DNA of 24,149 bases from a virus, in the IMG/VR virus record IMGVR_UViG_3300022928_000114, positions 1 to 24,149 of that record; one strand, given 5' to 3'. The notes below the pieces were generated by a model. The model did no database searches, was not told where the DNA came from, and worked only from the letters and a program-made list of their open reading frames with translations. Made by a program: the position numbers and the translations under genes. The number at the start of each line of letters is the position of its first letter. Position 1 is the first letter of the stretch. Of this stretch, positions 3 to 23,435 are shown piece after piece.

Positions 3-1508
3 GAGCTTGTTGAGACTGATGAGGTTGTGGTAGTTGGTGATAGTAAAGAGGGATGGGCTAAAGCCTTCCGTCAAATCATAAGCCGCCTCTATGCTGGTGA
101 GATACCTAAGTGGGACACATCTAAGGTACGTCCTGCTGGTGCTAGACTGAAGACCTTTGGTGGACGTGCCTCTGGTGCTGAACCGTTAGAGAACCTATTC
201 AAGTTTGCGGTGAATACATTTAAGAAAGCCGCAGGACGTAAGTTGAATAGCCTTGAGTGTCATGACATTATGTGTCAGGTAGCTGCTGCTGTTGTGGTTG
301 GTGGGGTTAGACGCTCTGCTATGATTAGTCTATCAAACCTAAGTGATGACCGTATGCGTCACGCTAAGATGGGTAACTGGTGGAACGAACAGGTCAACCG
401 TAGCTATGCTAACAACTCCATTGCCTTCACAGACAAGCCAGATATGGGTAGCTTTCTCCGTGAATGGTCAGCATTGTATGAATCTAAGTCAGGTGAACGA
501 GGTATATTTAACCGTGAAGCAGCCCAAGCTAAGGCAGAAAGTATTGGCAGAGAAAGCCGCAGCGATTTTGGAACGAACCCCTGTGGAGAAATCAGTCTCA
601 GAAGTAGACAATTCTGTAACCTCTCCGAAGTTGTCATCAGAGAAACCGATGGAGTCGGAGAGCTTGAGAAGAAAACCGAAATCGCAACGATCATTGGGAC
701 GATTCAATCAGCCCTTGTGGACTTCAAATACCTGTCACCGAAATGGAAAAAGAACTCCGAAGAAGAAAGGCTACTAGGCGTATCTCTTACTGGTATCTTT
801 GACCACAAGATTATGTCTGGTCAGGGTGAGTATGAGAAGTCTGTGCTTGGTGGTACGTTAGAGAAGCTTCGTGATATAACTCGTGATGTTAACAAGGAAT
901 GGGCTGAGAAGCTAGGCATCAATCCATCAAAGGCTATCACCACAGTTAAACCTTCTGGTACTGTATCACAGTTAGTTAATAGTGGTAGTGGTATCCACCC
1001 TCGCTATGCTAAACACTACATCCGTAGAGTAAGAGCAGATGTTAAAGACCCTCTTGCTACTTGGATGCAGGAGAAGGGTGTCCCCTGTGAGGTTGATGTA
1101 TATAATCCACAGAACCTAGTGTTTGAATTTCCTATGGCTTCTGCTTCTAATAGTCTTACACGACATGACATTGGTGCTATTGAACACCTAGAGCTATGGC
1201 TTACATACCGTAATCACTGGACTGACCACAACCCATCAGTAACTATCTATGTAGGTGAGGATGAATGGGCTGATGTAGGTGCATGGGTATGGAAACATTG
1301 GGATGAAGTGTGTGGTGTATCCTTCCTACCTCGTGAGGATGACAACCATTCCTACGCACAAGCACCCTATGAAGAGATTACAGAGCAGCAGTATAAAGAA
1401 CTAAATGCAGCTATGCCAGTAATTGACTTTGCTGAGTATACAGAAGTCCTTGATAATACTACATCTTCTCAGGAATTAGCCTGTACTGCTGGTGTATGTG
1501 AAATCTAA
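3..1508 (+). CDS. Class II (adenosylcobalamin-dependent) ribonucleotide reductase, 5'-truncated by window edge
   Basis: Reduces ribonucleotides to deoxyribonucleotides for phage DNA synthesis, using a B12-generated thiyl radical. The frame is open to the left edge, so the start is outside the window; GTG at 27 is internal. About 500 residues are visible. The radical site NPCGE lies at 576-590 (Cys codon 582-584, Glu 588-590) and the partner cysteine, in FCNLSEV, at 615-617. Upstream is VGGVRRSA, and downstream PSGTVSQ and HPRYAKHYIRRVR, all typical of RNR large subunits. The C-terminus ends ACTAGVCEI, a CX4C pair like the redox-active tail cysteines of the Lactobacillus leichmannii monomeric enzyme (739 aa), so roughly 240 residues are missing, including the first disulfide cysteine. 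Location just before the portal matches cyanopodoviruses. Codons from about 546 to 775 differ strongly from the rest of the gene. Class II is inferred from overall motif style and the C-terminal pair. Confidence 0.93.
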   Translation, partial: ELVETDEVVVVGDSKEGWAKAFRQIISRLYAGEIPKWDTSKVRPAGARLKTFGGRASGAEPLENLFKFAVNTFKKAAGRKLNSLECHDIMCQVAAAVVVGGVRRSAMISLSNLSDDRMRHAKMGNWWNEQVNRSYANNSIAFTDKPDMGSFLREWSALYESKSGERGIFNREAAQAKAESIGRESRSDFGTNPCGEISLRSRQFCNLSEVVIRETDGVGELEKKTEIATIIGTIQSALVDFKYLSPKWKKNSEEERLLGVSLTGIFDHKIMSGQGEYEKSVLGGTLEKLRDITRDVNKEWAEKLGINPSKAITTVKPSGTVSQLVNSGSGIHPRYAKHYIRRVRADVKDPLATWMQEKGVPCEVDVYNPQNLVFEFPMASASNSLTRHDIGAIEHLELWLTYRNHWTDHNPSVTIYVGEDEWADVGAWVWKHWDEVCGVSFLPREDDNHSYAQAPYEEITEQQYKELNAAMPVIDFAEYTEVLDNTTSSQELACTAGVCEI

Positions 1509-18356: not shown

Positions 18357-20534
18357 ATGGCCTTTTCATACAAAGACTATACAGGTGATGGTGTAACAGA
18401 TACGTTCACCATTACCTTCACATACCAAAGCACTGACGAAATCAGTGTAACTGTGGATGGTGTGGCTGAAACAGGCCTCACCTTTCCCTCTGTAACAAGT
18501 GTGCAGTTAACGTCTGCTCCTGCTTCTGATGCTCTAGTACGAGTACGCAGAACAACTAGCCTTACATCACGAGCCGTAGACTTTGCGTCTGGTTCAGTGT
18601 TGACTGAAGAAGACTTGGATAACTCTAACATTCAGGTCTTCCACGCAGCACAGGAAGCTGTGGACACTGCTAGTGATGCTATTACTCTTGCTGATGACGA
18701 CAAGTGGGATGCACAGTCTAAAGTTATCAAGAACGTAGCAACACCAGTATCAGACAATGATGCTTCTACTAAGGCTTATGTAGACCAGATTGAAATAGAT
18801 GCAACAGCAGCACAAGCAGCAGCAGAAGCTGCTCAGGCGGCAGCAGAGACTGCTGAGACTAATGCAGCAGCAAGCGCAGCAACAGCCACTACAAAGGCTT
18901 CTGAGGCCTCTACAAGTGCCTCTAATGCAGCTTCAAGTGCATCTGCTTCGGCTACCAGTGCTTCTAGTTCATCTACTTCTGCTACAGCTAGTGCGTCAAG
19001 TGCTACGGCAGCAGCAGCTAGTGCAGCAGCAGCAGCGGTTAGTGAGACAAATGCAGCAACTTCTGAATCAAATGCCTCGACTTCGGAAACTAATGCGGCA
19101 TCAAGTGCCTCATCTGCATCGACTTCTGCCTCAACTGCAACAACTCAAGCTGGCATCGCGACTACAAAAGCTGGAGAAGCGGCTACTAGTGAAGCTAATG
19201 CGGCTACTAGTGAAGCTAATGCGGCGACATCTGCCTCTAATGCCTCGACAAGCGAGAGCAATGCGGCATCATCAGCTACTGCGGCGGCGGCTTCTCAGGT
19301 ATCGGCGGCGGCTAGTGCGGCTAGTGCGGCATCAGCCTTCGACAATTTTGATGACACTTACCTTGGCGCAAAAGCAAGTGAACCAACGGTGGACAATGAT
19401 GGTGACCCGTTAAACCAAGGCGACTTGTACTTTAATACTACAGCAAATGAAATGCGTGTGTATGACGGTGGTAGCTGGATTGCGGCTTCATCGGCTGGCG
19501 GTGTTTCATTACTAATGTATGAGTACACAGCAACCTCAGGTCAGACGACATTCTCTGGTTCTGACGACAACGCTAATACACTCAGCTACACTATTGACAA
19601 CATCATCGTAACGCTTAACGGTGTTGTTCTTGACCCTGACGATTACACAGCAACTAACGGCACAAGCATTGTGCTTGGCACTGGTGCGGCTCTGAATGAC
19701 GAGCTTAATGTGGTTGCGTTCAAATCCTTCACTACTGCGGATATGGTGTCGGCTACTAATGGCGGTACTTTTGGTAATGACGTTACTTGGGTAGACAACG
19801 CAAAGGCCATCTTCGGTGCAGGGTCTGACTTGCAGATTTATCACAATGGGTCAAATAGCTATATTCAAGAGACAGGCACTGGAAACCTGTTTATTGCCAG
19901 TGATGCAAACGTAAATATCACTAACCAATCAACGAGTGAACTGAAAGCCACCTTCATATCAAACGGTGCTGTTAATCTTTACTACGACAATGCCGCAAAA
20001 CTTTCTACCACCGCCACAGGCGTGGATGTCACTGGCACTGTGACGGCGACAGCATTTTCTGGTGACGGCTCTGCTCTTACTGGCATTGCAGGGTTTCCAT
20101 CTGGCACACTTATGCTGTTTCAACAGACTGCCGCGCCGACAGGCTGGACAAAGCAAACAACACACAACGACAAAGCACTGAGGGTTGTAAGTGGTACGGC
20201 TGGGTCTGGCGGTTCAACGGCATTTTCAACTGCACTAGGAACACCAGCAGTTAGCGGTTCTGTTTCTGTTAGTGGTAACATTTCTGACACCACGCTTTCT
20301 ACTACACAGATGCCTTCTCACTCTCATGGATACAGGGTGGCTGGAGGTAACAATGCCACAAACTCAAGTTATGGAAATAACACTGGGGCTAACGCCGTAG
20401 TTAACGGAACTACAAACAGTACTGGTGGTGGTGGCTCTCACAATCACGCTCACAACTTAGCTGGTTCTCTTTCATCTGCAACTACCGCAATCAATGTTCA
20501 ATATGTTGATTTGATCATTGCATCAAAGGATTAA
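18357..20534 (+). CDS. Tail fibre protein, T7 gp17-type anchor with Ala/Ser shaft and His-rich tip
   Basis: 725 residues (T7 gp17 has 553). Residues 1-~150 are the T7-tail-type anchor (MAFSYKDYTGDGVTDTFTIT, then VDFASGSVLTEEDLDNSNIQ). Residues ~150-325 are an Ala/Ser/Thr/Asn shaft with a seven-residue period (AATSEAN and variants), probably a trimeric coiled coil. Next come AKASEPTVDNDGDPL-NQGDLYFN and a second beta domain (TLNGVVLDPDDYTATNGTS in approximate form), then FGAGSDLQIYHNGSNSYIQ, a block common in marine phage fibres. From about 576 the tip starts PSGTLMLFQQTAAPTGW, a tail-collar-like pattern. HSH at 655-657 and HNHAH at 695-699 suggest metal binding as in T4 fibre tips. GC-rich codons (GCG, GGC) are far more frequent here than in the genes before it. 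Confidence 0.93.
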   Translation: MAFSYKDYTGDGVTDTFTITFTYQSTDEISVTVDGVAETGLTFPSVTSVQLTSAPASDALVRVRRTTSLTSRAVDFASGSVLTEEDLDNSNIQVFHAAQEAVDTASDAITLADDDKWDAQSKVIKNVATPVSDNDASTKAYVDQIEIDATAAQAAAEAAQAAAETAETNAAASAATATTKASEASTSASNAASSASASATSASSSSTSATASASSATAAAASAAAAAVSETNAATSESNASTSETNAASSASSASTSASTATTQAGIATTKAGEAATSEANAATSEANAATSASNASTSESNAASSATAAAASQVSAAASAASAASAFDNFDDTYLGAKASEPTVDNDGDPLNQGDLYFNTTANEMRVYDGGSWIAASSAGGVSLLMYEYTATSGQTTFSGSDDNANTLSYTIDNIIVTLNGVVLDPDDYTATNGTSIVLGTGAALNDELNVVAFKSFTTADMVSATNGGTFGNDVTWVDNAKAIFGAGSDLQIYHNGSNSYIQETGTGNLFIASDANVNITNQSTSELKATFISNGAVNLYYDNAAKLSTTATGVDVTGTVTATAFSGDGSALTGIAGFPSGTLMLFQQTAAPTGWTKQTTHNDKALRVVSGTAGSGGSTAFSTALGTPAVSGSVSVSGNISDTTLSTTQMPSHSHGYRVAGGNNATNSSYGNNTGANAVVNGTTNSTGGGGSHNHAHNLAGSLSSATTAINVQYVDLIIASKD
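19179..19220 (+). repeat. Perfect 21-bp tandem repeat in the fibre shaft
   Basis: The unit at 19179-19199 is repeated exactly at 19200-19220 and encodes AATSEAN twice, one heptad each. It shows how the shaft can grow or shrink by unequal recombination in frame. Confidence 0.93.
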
Positions 20535-20535
20535 T

Positions 20536-21108
20536 ATGGAAACGCCAAACTTTATAGAATCTTATCAAACTGAACAATACGATTTTTGTGACAGGGTTGT
20601 TGCAAGGCTTGAGGAGTTACTTGATGCAGAAAAAAGTCCAGAATCGCAAGGGCATTTACAAGTAGGCTCAGAAACAAATGGTGGAGCAGAGGTCAGGGTA
20701 GATTTTTCTTTTAATTTTCTTCATTTACAAGACCTTTTAAATACTGAGATGCACAACATATTACGACAATATTTGCCAGAGTACGGTAAAAAGTACAATG
20801 CTTTTAATGGACAGCTTTGTATGTCACAGGACATGAAGGTGCAAAAGACACTGCCTAAAGGTGGCTTTCATACTTGGCATTGTGAGCAGTGTGCTGCTGC
20901 GCCAGCAAGAAATTTAACGTGGACGTTGTACTTAAACGACATTCCAGACGGTGAGGGTGAAACAGAGTTCATTGAGTATGGTGTAAAAGTTCAGCCTAAA
21001 AAAGGATTGCTGTGTTTTTTCCCAGCAACTTGGACACATACCCATAGAGGCAACCCCGTTTATTCCTGTGACAAATACATAGCCACAGGATGGTATTACT
21101 TAGTGTAG
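20536..21108 (+). CDS. 2-oxoglutarate/Fe(II)-dependent oxygenase (prolyl-4-hydroxylase-like)
   Basis: 190 residues from ATG 20536, one base after the fibre stop and preceded by AAAGGA; the frame also opens at TTG 20518, which would overlap the fibre. Expected to hydroxylate a substrate using O2 and 2-oxoglutarate. The double-stranded beta-helix motif is visible: His115 and Glu117 in WHCEQ (HxE, where HxD is usual), His170 in TWTHTHRG, and Lys180 ten residues later, the spacing of the 2-oxoglutarate-binding lysine in prolyl 4-hydroxylases. TWTLYLNDIPDGEGETEF between them is the typical strand pair. His168 could be the ligand in place of His170. The substrate is unknown; neighbours are fibre and adhesin genes, so a virion protein is one possibility. 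Its codons (TTG, TTT, AAA) differ from the fibre gene. Confidence 0.85.
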   Translation: METPNFIESYQTEQYDFCDRVVARLEELLDAEKSPESQGHLQVGSETNGGAEVRVDFSFNFLHLQDLLNTEMHNILRQYLPEYGKKYNAFNGQLCMSQDMKVQKTLPKGGFHTWHCEQCAAAPARNLTWTLYLNDIPDGEGETEFIEYGVKVQPKKGLLCFFPATWTHTHRGNPVYSCDKYIATGWYYLV

Positions 21109-21696: not shown

Positions 21697-21912
21697 ATGA
21701 GTAACGCAAGAAACTTAGCCGATATAATTAGCGGAAACTTTGATGTTCCAGCAAACTCACTTGGCAACGTAGAAGCATTACCTTCTGGCTGGACAGCAAC
21801 ACTTAGTGGTACTGATATGGTGTTTAACTATAGTGGAACAGCAAAGTTTAAGGTTGCTTCTGATGGTTCAGTAACAGCAGTCGATGACGTGACAGCCTTT
21901 GGGAGTGTATAA
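21697..21912 (+). CDS. Small tail-associated protein (71 aa)
   Basis: Starts MSNARNLADIISGNFDVPAN, followed by SLGNVEALPSGWTATLSGTD and ending in GTAKFKVASDGSVTAVDDVT-AFGSV. The NARNLA start and the FKVASDGSVTAVDDVTAFGS end are patterns that recur in longer marine phage tail-fibre proteins, so this may be a fibre fragment working as a separate subunit or a clipped fibre remnant. TAAGGAG lies before the ATG. The stop shares a base with the following adhesin start (TAATG). Confidence 0.72.
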   Translation: MSNARNLADIISGNFDVPANSLGNVEALPSGWTATLSGTDMVFNYSGTAKFKVASDGSVTAVDDVTAFGSV

Positions 21913-22931
21913 TGCCACAAATTCCAAACTCAGGAGCTATCTCATTATCTGACTTTGCCGCAGAGTTTGGAGGTACTCCACCACATTCTATGTCGGAATA
22001 CTACCGTGATGGCGGTAATGTTCCTTCAAACAACACTAACGTGCCTACCTCTGGTGTGTTTCGTTTCGGTAATATGCGTGGTGCAATCAACGCTATTATT
22101 CAAACGCTATCCAATACAACCAACGTAGACCTATCAACCGTCTTTGGTAGTGACTGGGCAAGCACAGTCCCCAAAGAAATCATTATACCATCAGGCGTAA
22201 CCATAGGCGGCACAGGCTCATCTAATGCTCTGCTTGTCCCTAGCGGTATGGGCGGCACACTAGCAATTACTAACGCTGGAAGCATCATTGGATATGGCGG
22301 TGCGGTTGGGAGTGCTGGTGGTAACGCTATCAGCATAGCATCCACAGGTGTCACAGTAGACAACACTGGCCTCATCGCTGGCGGTGGTGGTGGTGGAGGT
22401 ACTGGTGGTTCTGGTGGCACAGGCGGTCAAGGTAGATATACTGGAAGCAGTGTAGAGGTAGGTATTACCAGTAGTAGTGGCAATCAGGCAACGAATTGTT
22501 CAAATCAATGTAACAGCCTCGGTAAAACCTATCATTATTACGCATATTATCAATGCGGCGAAGATACTTGTTGTTGTCGGTGTTATTGCTACAATTGGGT
22601 CTACACGTCTGGTGGTGCTGGTGGTGCTGGCGGCTCAGGTGGAGTAGGTCAAGGATATAATCAGTCTGCAACGTCAGGCTCTGCTGGGATTACTGGTGCG
22701 GCTGGTGGAACAAATGCTGGGGCTGGTGGTTCTGGAGGCTCTGGAGGCTCTGGTTCAGCTTATGGTACTGCTGGGGTTTCTGGTAACACAGGTTCTTCTG
22801 GTGCTAATGGTAACTATACAAATGGCTCTAGCGCATCAAGTGGCGCATCAGGTGGCGCAGCTGGAGCGGCAGTCATCTATACAGCGGCCTACACTATGAA
22901 TAACACAGGTACACTGGCAGGAGCGGCATAA
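21912..22931 (+). CDS. Glycine-rich tail adhesin-like protein with eight-cysteine insert
   Basis: 339 residues. The N-terminus PNSGAISLSDFAAEFGGTPP, then SMSEYYRDG and FRFGNMRGA, is a small adaptor region I recall from phage tail proteins. Residues ~85-155 have beta-helix-like repeats (VTIGGTGSSNALLVPSGMGG, GLIAGG). From residue 157 the sequence is mostly Gly/Ser/Ala/Thr in short Gly-X-X blocks, like polyglycine-II adhesins such as gp38 of T-even-type phages. At 196-226 this is broken by eight cysteines (196, 200, 215, 220, 221, 222, 224, 226) with many tyrosines, an unusual compact insert likely to form disulfides or bind metal. After it the Gly-rich blocks resume to about 325, then an Ala-rich end. 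It probably contacts the host surface. The assignment is by composition and context, not by homology search. Confidence 0.8.
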   Translation: MPQIPNSGAISLSDFAAEFGGTPPHSMSEYYRDGGNVPSNNTNVPTSGVFRFGNMRGAINAIIQTLSNTTNVDLSTVFGSDWASTVPKEIIIPSGVTIGGTGSSNALLVPSGMGGTLAITNAGSIIGYGGAVGSAGGNAISIASTGVTVDNTGLIAGGGGGGGTGGSGGTGGQGRYTGSSVEVGITSSSGNQATNCSNQCNSLGKTYHYYAYYQCGEDTCCCRCYCYNWVYTSGGAGGAGGSGGVGQGYNQSATSGSAGITGAAGGTNAGAGGSGGSGGSGSAYGTAGVSGNTGSSGANGNYTNGSSASSGASGGAAGAAVIYTAAYTMNNTGTLAGAA

Positions 22932-23071
22932 TGACTAGTGAAGAGCGAATGGAAATCTGCAAGCAGTGTGTTTGGTTTAGAGAGGTCTTAAAGACTTGCA
23001 AGAAATGTGGGTGCTTTATGCCTATCAAGACCAAGTTTAAATCTAGCAAATGTCCAATAAGGAGATGGTAA
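22931..23071 (+). CDS. Small zinc-ribbon-like protein (46 aa)
   Basis: ATG 22931 shares one base with the adhesin stop (TAATG). The product starts MTSEERMEICKQCVWFRE and continues with TCKKCGCFMP and SKCPIRRW. It has six cysteines (CxxC, CxxCxC, C), the layout of a small zinc ribbon, and closely resembles a family I recall from phages (DUF6171-like; name not certain). It is basic at the C-terminus. The function is unknown; possibly a nucleic-acid-binding or regulatory microprotein. Its final codons contain AAGGAGAT, the ribosome site of the next gene. Confidence 0.75.
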   Translation: MTSEERMEICKQCVWFREVLKTCKKCGCFMPIKTKFKSSKCPIRRW

Positions 23072-23072
23072 G

Positions 23073-23435
23073 ATGATTGATTACACAATTGAAAGCGTAA
23101 CAGAAGATGGTTTAGCAACTGTTCGGTTTGCTGACGGAAGCTGGGCTGAGGTACTTTTAGCCGCCAGTATGACGGAGAAAGACGTTGATGAGTTGGTGTG
23201 GGAATTTAGACCTAAAACAGGTTCTATCCCTTCATTTATTAATGTAGGCAATACACGAAGTGCAATTCCTGTAGTTACACCTGCAAACGAAACAGAACCT
23301 AATCCAGACTGGCTTAACAATAGAATTGAAGCATATGGCAATATTGAATCACAGATTGAGTTTATCACAGAGAATGGACTTGAGGCTTGGCAAGCTGAAG
23401 TGGCACAGATCAAAGCAGACAACCCTAAAGTATGA
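23073..23435 (+). CDS. Probable tail accessory/assembly protein (120 aa)
   Basis: Starts MIDYTIESVTEDGLATVRFA and has a small beta-barrel-like N-terminal part with GSWAEVLLAASMTEKDVDEL, then VWEFRPKTGSIPSF. The C-terminus (RIEAYGNIESQIEFITENGL, EAWQAEVAQIKADNPKV) is the helical ending often seen in small proteins next to phage tail fibres and adhesins, some described as tail assembly chaperones. AAGGAGAT precedes the ATG. The stop overlaps the next gene by four bases (ATGA). The role is inferred from place and general look, so the name is tentative. Confidence 0.7.
   Translation: MIDYTIESVTEDGLATVRFADGSWAEVLLAASMTEKDVDELVWEFRPKTGSIPSFINVGNTRSAIPVVTPANETEPNPDWLNNRIEAYGNIESQIEFITENGLEAWQAEVAQIKADNPKV

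Follow-up and report, generated by a model that had tools for sequence, protein, structure and literature searches.

A gp38-like polyglycine adhesin with a hypervariable, cysteine-rich loop in a T7-like podovirus

The adhesin gene and its neighborhood

The window analyzed here is the whole of a 24,149-base virus record (IMG/VR IMGVR_UViG_3300022928_000114). It is probably a genome fragment, and it encodes the structural module of a T7-like podovirus (Table 1). The nozzle protein was identified by its match to PF25675 (E = 2e-229). With at most 42% identity to the nozzles of LUZ100 and of Rhizobium, Roseobacter, and Pelagibacter phages, it does not allow a host to be named. By eye, the C-terminal part of a ribonucleotide reductase seems to be encoded at the left end of the record. 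A T7-type tail fiber gene lies upstream of the adhesin gene with four small genes between them, and the neighborhoods of relatives are similar. This fiber is likely the carrier of the adhesin. Its C-terminus forms a collar-like tip with HSHG and HNHAHN motifs, resembling metal-binding fiber tips, and a 2OG-Fe(II) oxygenase is encoded between fiber and adhesin. Proteins of 71 and 120 aa flank the adhesin in many phages that otherwise differ, the former directly upstream of it in many close relatives.

Table 1. Positions of the genes and adhesin segments discussed in the text
Feature	Position	Strand	Basis
Stretch resembling C-terminal part of ribonucleotide reductase, left record edge	27..1508	+	by eye
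T7-type tail fiber, PF03906 N-terminus	18357..20534	+	PF03906, E = 9.9e-33
2OG-Fe(II) oxygenase	20518..21108	+	PF13640; phrog_61
71-aa protein upstream of adhesin	21697..21912	+	synteny
gp38-like polyglycine adhesin gene, 339 aa	21912..22931	+	ORF; phrog_10745, 8.4e-33; BFVD gp38-domain structural match, E = 8.1e-29
N-terminal module, residues 1-56, GAISLSDFA.EFGG..PHSMSEYYR..VP..N.NVPTSG	21912..22079	+	kept in most relatives; AF2 pLDDT 55-65
Beta-helix core, residues 57-155, including first small Gly extension G127-G137	22080..22376	+	AF2 pLDDT mostly >90; conserved profile part matching 6f45_D
Long polyglycine run, residues 156-172, equivalent of S16 Gly-rich motif 3	22377..22427	+	Gly columns 158-171 near-invariant; S16 topology (PMC6851490)
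Hypervariable insert at distal loop B position, residues 173-233	22428..22610	+	no conserved columns there in relatives; pairwise loop identity
Eight-Cys core, residues 196-226, spacing 3-14-4-0-0-1-1	22497..22589	+	Cys positions; even-Cys rule
Remaining Gly-rich motifs and short variable turns, residues 234-318	22611..22865	+	GVGQGYNQ is the conserved block after the loop
C-terminal beta-helix closure, residues 319-339, VIYTAAYTMNNTGTLAGAA	22866..22928	+	AF2 pLDDT 91-96; kept in relatives
46-aa Cys-rich microprotein	22931..23071	+	DUF6171 (PF19668)
120-aa protein downstream of adhesin	23073..23435	+	synteny

All cysteines of the 339-aa adhesin (residues 196, 200, 215, 220, 221, 222, 224, and 226) fall within the insert, and eight cysteines placed at random would span no more than 31 of the 339 positions with an exact probability of 1.6e-7. 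A preliminary description of this DNA had correctly reported the eight cysteines of residues 196-226, including CCCRCYC (220-226), at 22494-22600, an interval that encloses the core, as well as the Gly-rich, Cys-free flanks on either side of the insert in the window protein. Of the seven tyrosines that it counted, six lie within residues 196-226 (207, 209, 210, 212, 213, and 225), while the seventh, Y227, is just outside. In the AF2 model of the window adhesin (overall pLDDT 77.7, beta-helix >90), C196-x3-C200 was placed in a helix and the CxC and remaining cysteines in a hairpin, an arrangement that, at a pLDDT of only 61-69, gives only a hint of the fold. A defensin-like CS-alpha-beta fold would call for a C-x3-C helix bridged to a C-x-C strand; the low-confidence placement gives at most a hint of it, and the cysteine spacings of relatives differ.

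The 46-aa Cys-rich microprotein encoded next to the adhesin overlaps the adhesin's stop codon and contains two CxxC-like pairs. It was matched to DUF6171 (PF19668; E = 2.4e-6, above the cut-off). The preliminary description had suggested that it might be relevant to the cysteine knot, a suggestion not borne out, as no link between the two was found. A role as a folding helper was considered and rejected, DUF6171 being the only match. Synteny entries for the microprotein, which rested on a wrong reading frame, were left out of the comparison.

A gp38-like scaffold with a hypervariable loop

More than 100 distinct relatives of the adhesin were collected by scanning IMG/VR (L-numbers denote such uncultivated relatives and close phages). 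A Pfam scan of the window adhesin gave no match, PF05268 (GP38) included, and a Foldseek search of its model against PDB gave none either, the insert with its low confidence being the probable reason. The case for the scaffold rests on the relatives. A profile built from 28 of them had S16 gp38 (6f45_D, E = 2.9e-5) as its top PDB match, the aligned stretch taking in non-Gly positions as well, and PF05268 matched 6 of 40 relatives (best 6e-6). The insert-less relative L021 overcame the difficulty posed by the insert: the only PDB matches of its AF2 model (pLDDT 87.8, pTM 0.83) with E < 0.001 were PP01 gp38 (two chains of 9v85, 1.1e-7 and 1.8e-7) and S16 gp38 (6f45_D, 4.6e-6). In BFVD, the window model itself matched Gp38-domain proteins from two phages, RL2RES of Rhizobium (8.1e-29) and OLIVR5 of Agrobacterium (1.1e-8). 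Several matches were discarded as reflecting composition, namely the PDB matches of profiles A1 and A5, which were to Gly-rich linkers only; phmmer of the window adhesin returned only LIM-domain linker constructs and similar sequences (E at least 0.04), which were also discarded, and the scan with profile A3 gave mainly Gly-rich noise. A search of genome contigs found no relative.

As judged by profile, Pfam, and predicted fold, the scaffold is that of a gp38-like adhesin: Gly-rich motifs alternate with hypervariable segments, and a beta-helix with a polyglycine-II sandwich is predicted. These matches to S16 and PP01 gp38 support the earlier proposal of a Cys-rich knot borne by a polyglycine-II stack and forming a likely receptor-binding tip. 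The tip had also been described as unlike the aromatic loops of known gp38-type adhesins; the loop is indeed new, but the protein is itself a gp38-type adhesin and not a rival to that type. We use the term gp38-like, and not gp38 ortholog, because the window protein lacks a Pfam match and its N-terminal module (residues 1-56) is not the three-helix domain. This module, which is probably the attachment domain, has no Trp and two short, low-confidence predicted helices, and it differs from the three-helix Trp domain by which gp38 docks on gp37. It is of a widely shared type and is absent from L018-L031. The same module heads four proteins (L046, L045, L033, and L041) with apparently unrelated, non-Gly C-termini, most clearly in L046 and L045, and is apparently a docking module common to different tip proteins.

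In S16 gp38, two beta-helix turns extend into the polyglycine-II sandwich and the variable segments form distal loops (PMC6851490). The first small Gly extension of the window adhesin occupies residues 127-137, and the second opens with the long run 156-172, after which comes the insert (173-233). Since the insert follows the long Gly run, and is thus the distal loop that comes first in the second extension, we assigned it to the position of loop B; the equivalence is one of topology and not of residues, as residue alignment to gp38 is insecure. L021 aligns on either side of the insert (49% over the beta-helix and 90% over GGAGGVGQGYNQS and the next residues), with ~10 residues replacing it. 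Loop B of PP01 gp38 (residues 158-170) is essential for adsorption (PMC12892980).

The metagenome comparison suggested in the preliminary description had the predicted outcome: about 100 relatives keep the Gly blocks, and the Cys insert is hypervariable. Loops at this position, with boundaries set by pattern, are ~10 aa long (L018-L025 and L102), Cys-free and ~80-95 aa long (L006, L008, L009, L084, Paso, and RHph_N34), or Cys-rich mini-domains with 2-10 cysteines in many spacings. Their mean Cys content in relatives was 3.8%; the N-terminal part of these adhesins had 0.50%, and the remaining long ORFs on these contigs 0.48%. When pairs of relatives were grouped by beta-helix identity, mean identities of core and loop were 0.94 and 0.64, 0.84 and 0.39, 0.74 and 0.32, and 0.64 and 0.22, respectively. 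Isolated phages with homologs (Paso, RHph_N34, and phiM9) have Cys-free loops, and the phage collection searched yielded no isolate whose loop is Cys-rich.

Close relatives of the window phage differ in the same region. L002, whose internal virion protein is 96% identical over 597 aa, encodes an adhesin with 81% identity in the N-terminal 155 residues but a different, four-Cys loop. L281 is 98% identical to the window in DNA up to 19096, and it and L282-L286 diverge abruptly within the fiber gene past its N-terminal part; close phages are near-identical to the window up to approximately fiber residues 100-250, with the switch at ~18660-19100. The loop difference of L002 and the fiber divergence of L281-L286 therefore indicate that the host-recognition module is exchanged on a conserved backbone. 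A diversity-generating retroelement was rejected as the source of variation, since the loops differ in length and Cys spacing rather than by substitutions in a fixed-length repeat; inspection of the window ORFs by eye also revealed no obvious reverse transcriptase.

Even cysteine numbers in the loop

Among Cys-containing loops of 35-170 aa, 62 had an even number of cysteines and 10 an odd number (binomial P = 1.3e-10). Some odd loops have one further cysteine downstream, and when cysteines were counted from the loop to the C-terminus, a measure adopted after these exceptions had been seen, 91 were even and 6 odd. With the same count and single-linkage clustering of loops, which corrects for relatedness among them only in part, there were 38 even versus 2 odd at 50% identity and 15 versus 0 at 40%. 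Controls gave 132 even versus 157 odd for ordinary ORFs of the same contigs and 20 versus 36 for the upstream part of the same adhesins, and other residues within the same loops had no even bias. L129 and L215, with beta-helices 97% alike, have six and eight loop cysteines, respectively, and differ by one extra C-x4-C pair. Cysteines in these loops are gained and lost in pairs; therefore disulfides are favored over metal, as a metal site would favor 3-4 ligands, often His. Of the "disulfide or metal knot" originally envisaged, the disulfide half gained support from even numbers at every value from 2 to 10, irregular spacings, and the lack of correlation between Cys and His numbers (r = 0.03), while the metal half is disfavored.

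Cysteines elsewhere in the family were also noted. A short-loop subclass (L136, L125, L106, L144, and L146) has one cysteine in the first loop and one elsewhere, possibly a disulfide joining two distal loops. In a second Gly-rich family (L165, L193, L200, L207, L230, and L266), 7 or 9 loop cysteines are accompanied by exactly one downstream, giving an even total.

Interpretation and comparison with known systems

A knob that binds zinc or iron-sulfur and folds around its metal in the reducing cytoplasm would solve the problem of cytoplasmic folding, and both the commonest spacing of neighboring cysteines in the loops (C-x2-C, 33 cases) and the commonest non-zero count in long loops (four) are as such a site might have them. 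We nevertheless consider it improbable, since 2, 6, 8, and 10 cysteines are also common and changes go by two, spacings are widely spread (0-20 and beyond), loops richer in Cys are not richer in His, and the CCCRCYC core with its six tyrosines shows no obvious tetrahedral site. A metallothionein-like knot was judged unlikely for a further reason, as the core is Tyr-rich and metallothioneins are not known to carry aromatic residues. It is also rather unlikely that the Cys loop serves mainly to stabilize a gp38-like adhesin against proteases or the environment while other distal loops contact the receptor. Gp38 does have several distal loops (A-E), of which loop E of PP01 enters the OmpC cleft (PMC12892980), but no other segment comes near the Cys loop in length or variability, as receptor-driven selection predicts, whereas a stability device would be conserved.

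That the protein is no virion adhesin at all, but a secreted or cytoplasmic Gly-rich protein or a fiber chaperone, as T4 gp38 is (PMC6851490), seems very improbable: its predicted fold matches the adhesin gp38 of S16 and PP01 and no other fold, its loop is hypervariable, and in many relatives it is located in the fiber region. A frameshift or assembly error creating a spurious Cys-rich stretch is scarcely credible. No close homolog of the window insert was found in any other contig, as an artifact would predict, but the frame stays open into the conserved C-terminus, L073 and L197 have a C-x4-CC core in the same place, and dozens of independent contigs have Cys-rich loops.

The reading we prefer, to which we assign a probability of about 0.74, is that the product of the gene is a tail-tip adhesin of gp38 type, belonging to a T7-like podovirus, that its loop B is replaced by a disulfide mini-domain that contacts the receptor, and that such loops are exchanged for host specificity. 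The N-terminal module would attach the adhesin to the virion, with the T7-type fiber as the likeliest anchor and another tail part as the alternative, and the short beta-helix would carry the polyglycine-II sandwich as a rigid platform. At the tip of the adhesin, which is likely to be the receptor-binding part, an independently folding, disulfide-locked knob would take the place of loop B, contact the host receptor, and keep its fold while almost every residue can change. Among relatives the scaffold would be retained, with other disulfide mini-domains or Cys-free segments standing in for the loop, and host specificity would therefore be diversified by exchange of loops between relatives, with cysteines coming and going in pairs. 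Since tail proteins are made in the reducing cytoplasm, oxidation would most likely follow lysis: the adhesin would be reduced within the cell, and its disulfides would probably form in oxidizing water. An unsystematic look through the window revealed no enzyme that makes disulfides. For the broader proposition the odds appear evenly balanced, namely that a large group of uncultivated tailed phages diversify their receptor-binding tips with interchangeable disulfide knobs on polyglycine, which are set free by lysis, oxidized outside and binding-competent only after release, as a counterpart of the bovine ultralong CDR-H3 knob.

If correct, phages already possess a natural display library, in which disulfide mini-domains with many different frameworks are presented for receptor binding on a rigid polyglycine scaffold. 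This would explain how small loops hold a defined shape while nearly all residues change. The even-Cys rule would help to spot receptor-binding loops in metagenomes, the timing of phage disulfide formation would be directly testable, and the protein could provide a scaffold for binding proteins.

The gp38 kind of adhesin was known already, as was a podoviral member; new are the Cys-rich, expanded loop, its spread among uncultivated phages, and the even-Cys rule. Rhizobium phage Paso (Autographiviridae) provides the podoviral member, labeled a receptor recognition protein after an HHpred match to S16 gp38. This homologous adhesin, encoded directly downstream of a PF03906 fiber, also counts toward identifying the scaffold as gp38-like; it has a Cys-free loop and an N-terminus unrelated to that of the window protein. 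The gp38 proteins of S16, T2, and PP01 (6F45, 9V85; PF05268) share with the window adhesin the beta-helix and polyglycine-II sandwich and the Gly-rich motifs parted by hypervariable segments, as well as, by prediction, the role of a monomeric fiber cap that binds the receptor. However, their loops are short (~6-10 residues in PP01) whereas loop B of the window family measures 10-130 aa and is often Cys-rich; their attachment domain is three-helix, unlike the window's N-terminal module; no disulfides were reported for them in the papers searched; and the window-type adhesin sits on a T7-like podovirus. The literature searched contained no disulfide-rich, hypervariable receptor-binding loop or protein of a phage. 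Disulfides themselves occur in virions, as the capsid of phage 7-7-1 contains many despite assembly in the reducing cytoplasm (PMC12796354), and a disulfide network in the tail of phage Milano is named in the title of a reference therein. Those of the Milano tail and 7-7-1 capsid are conserved structural cross-links, whereas in the window family they would lie in a variable, putative receptor-binding loop. The nearest analogy, though not a relative, is the knob of bovine ultralong CDR-H3, a hypervariable binding domain on a conserved stalk in which Cys numbers are biased to even and the disulfide pattern is part of the diversity (PMC7366855). It shares hypervariability and the even-Cys bias with the phage loop, but it belongs to an unrelated protein, is made in the oxidizing ER, and is diversified somatically.
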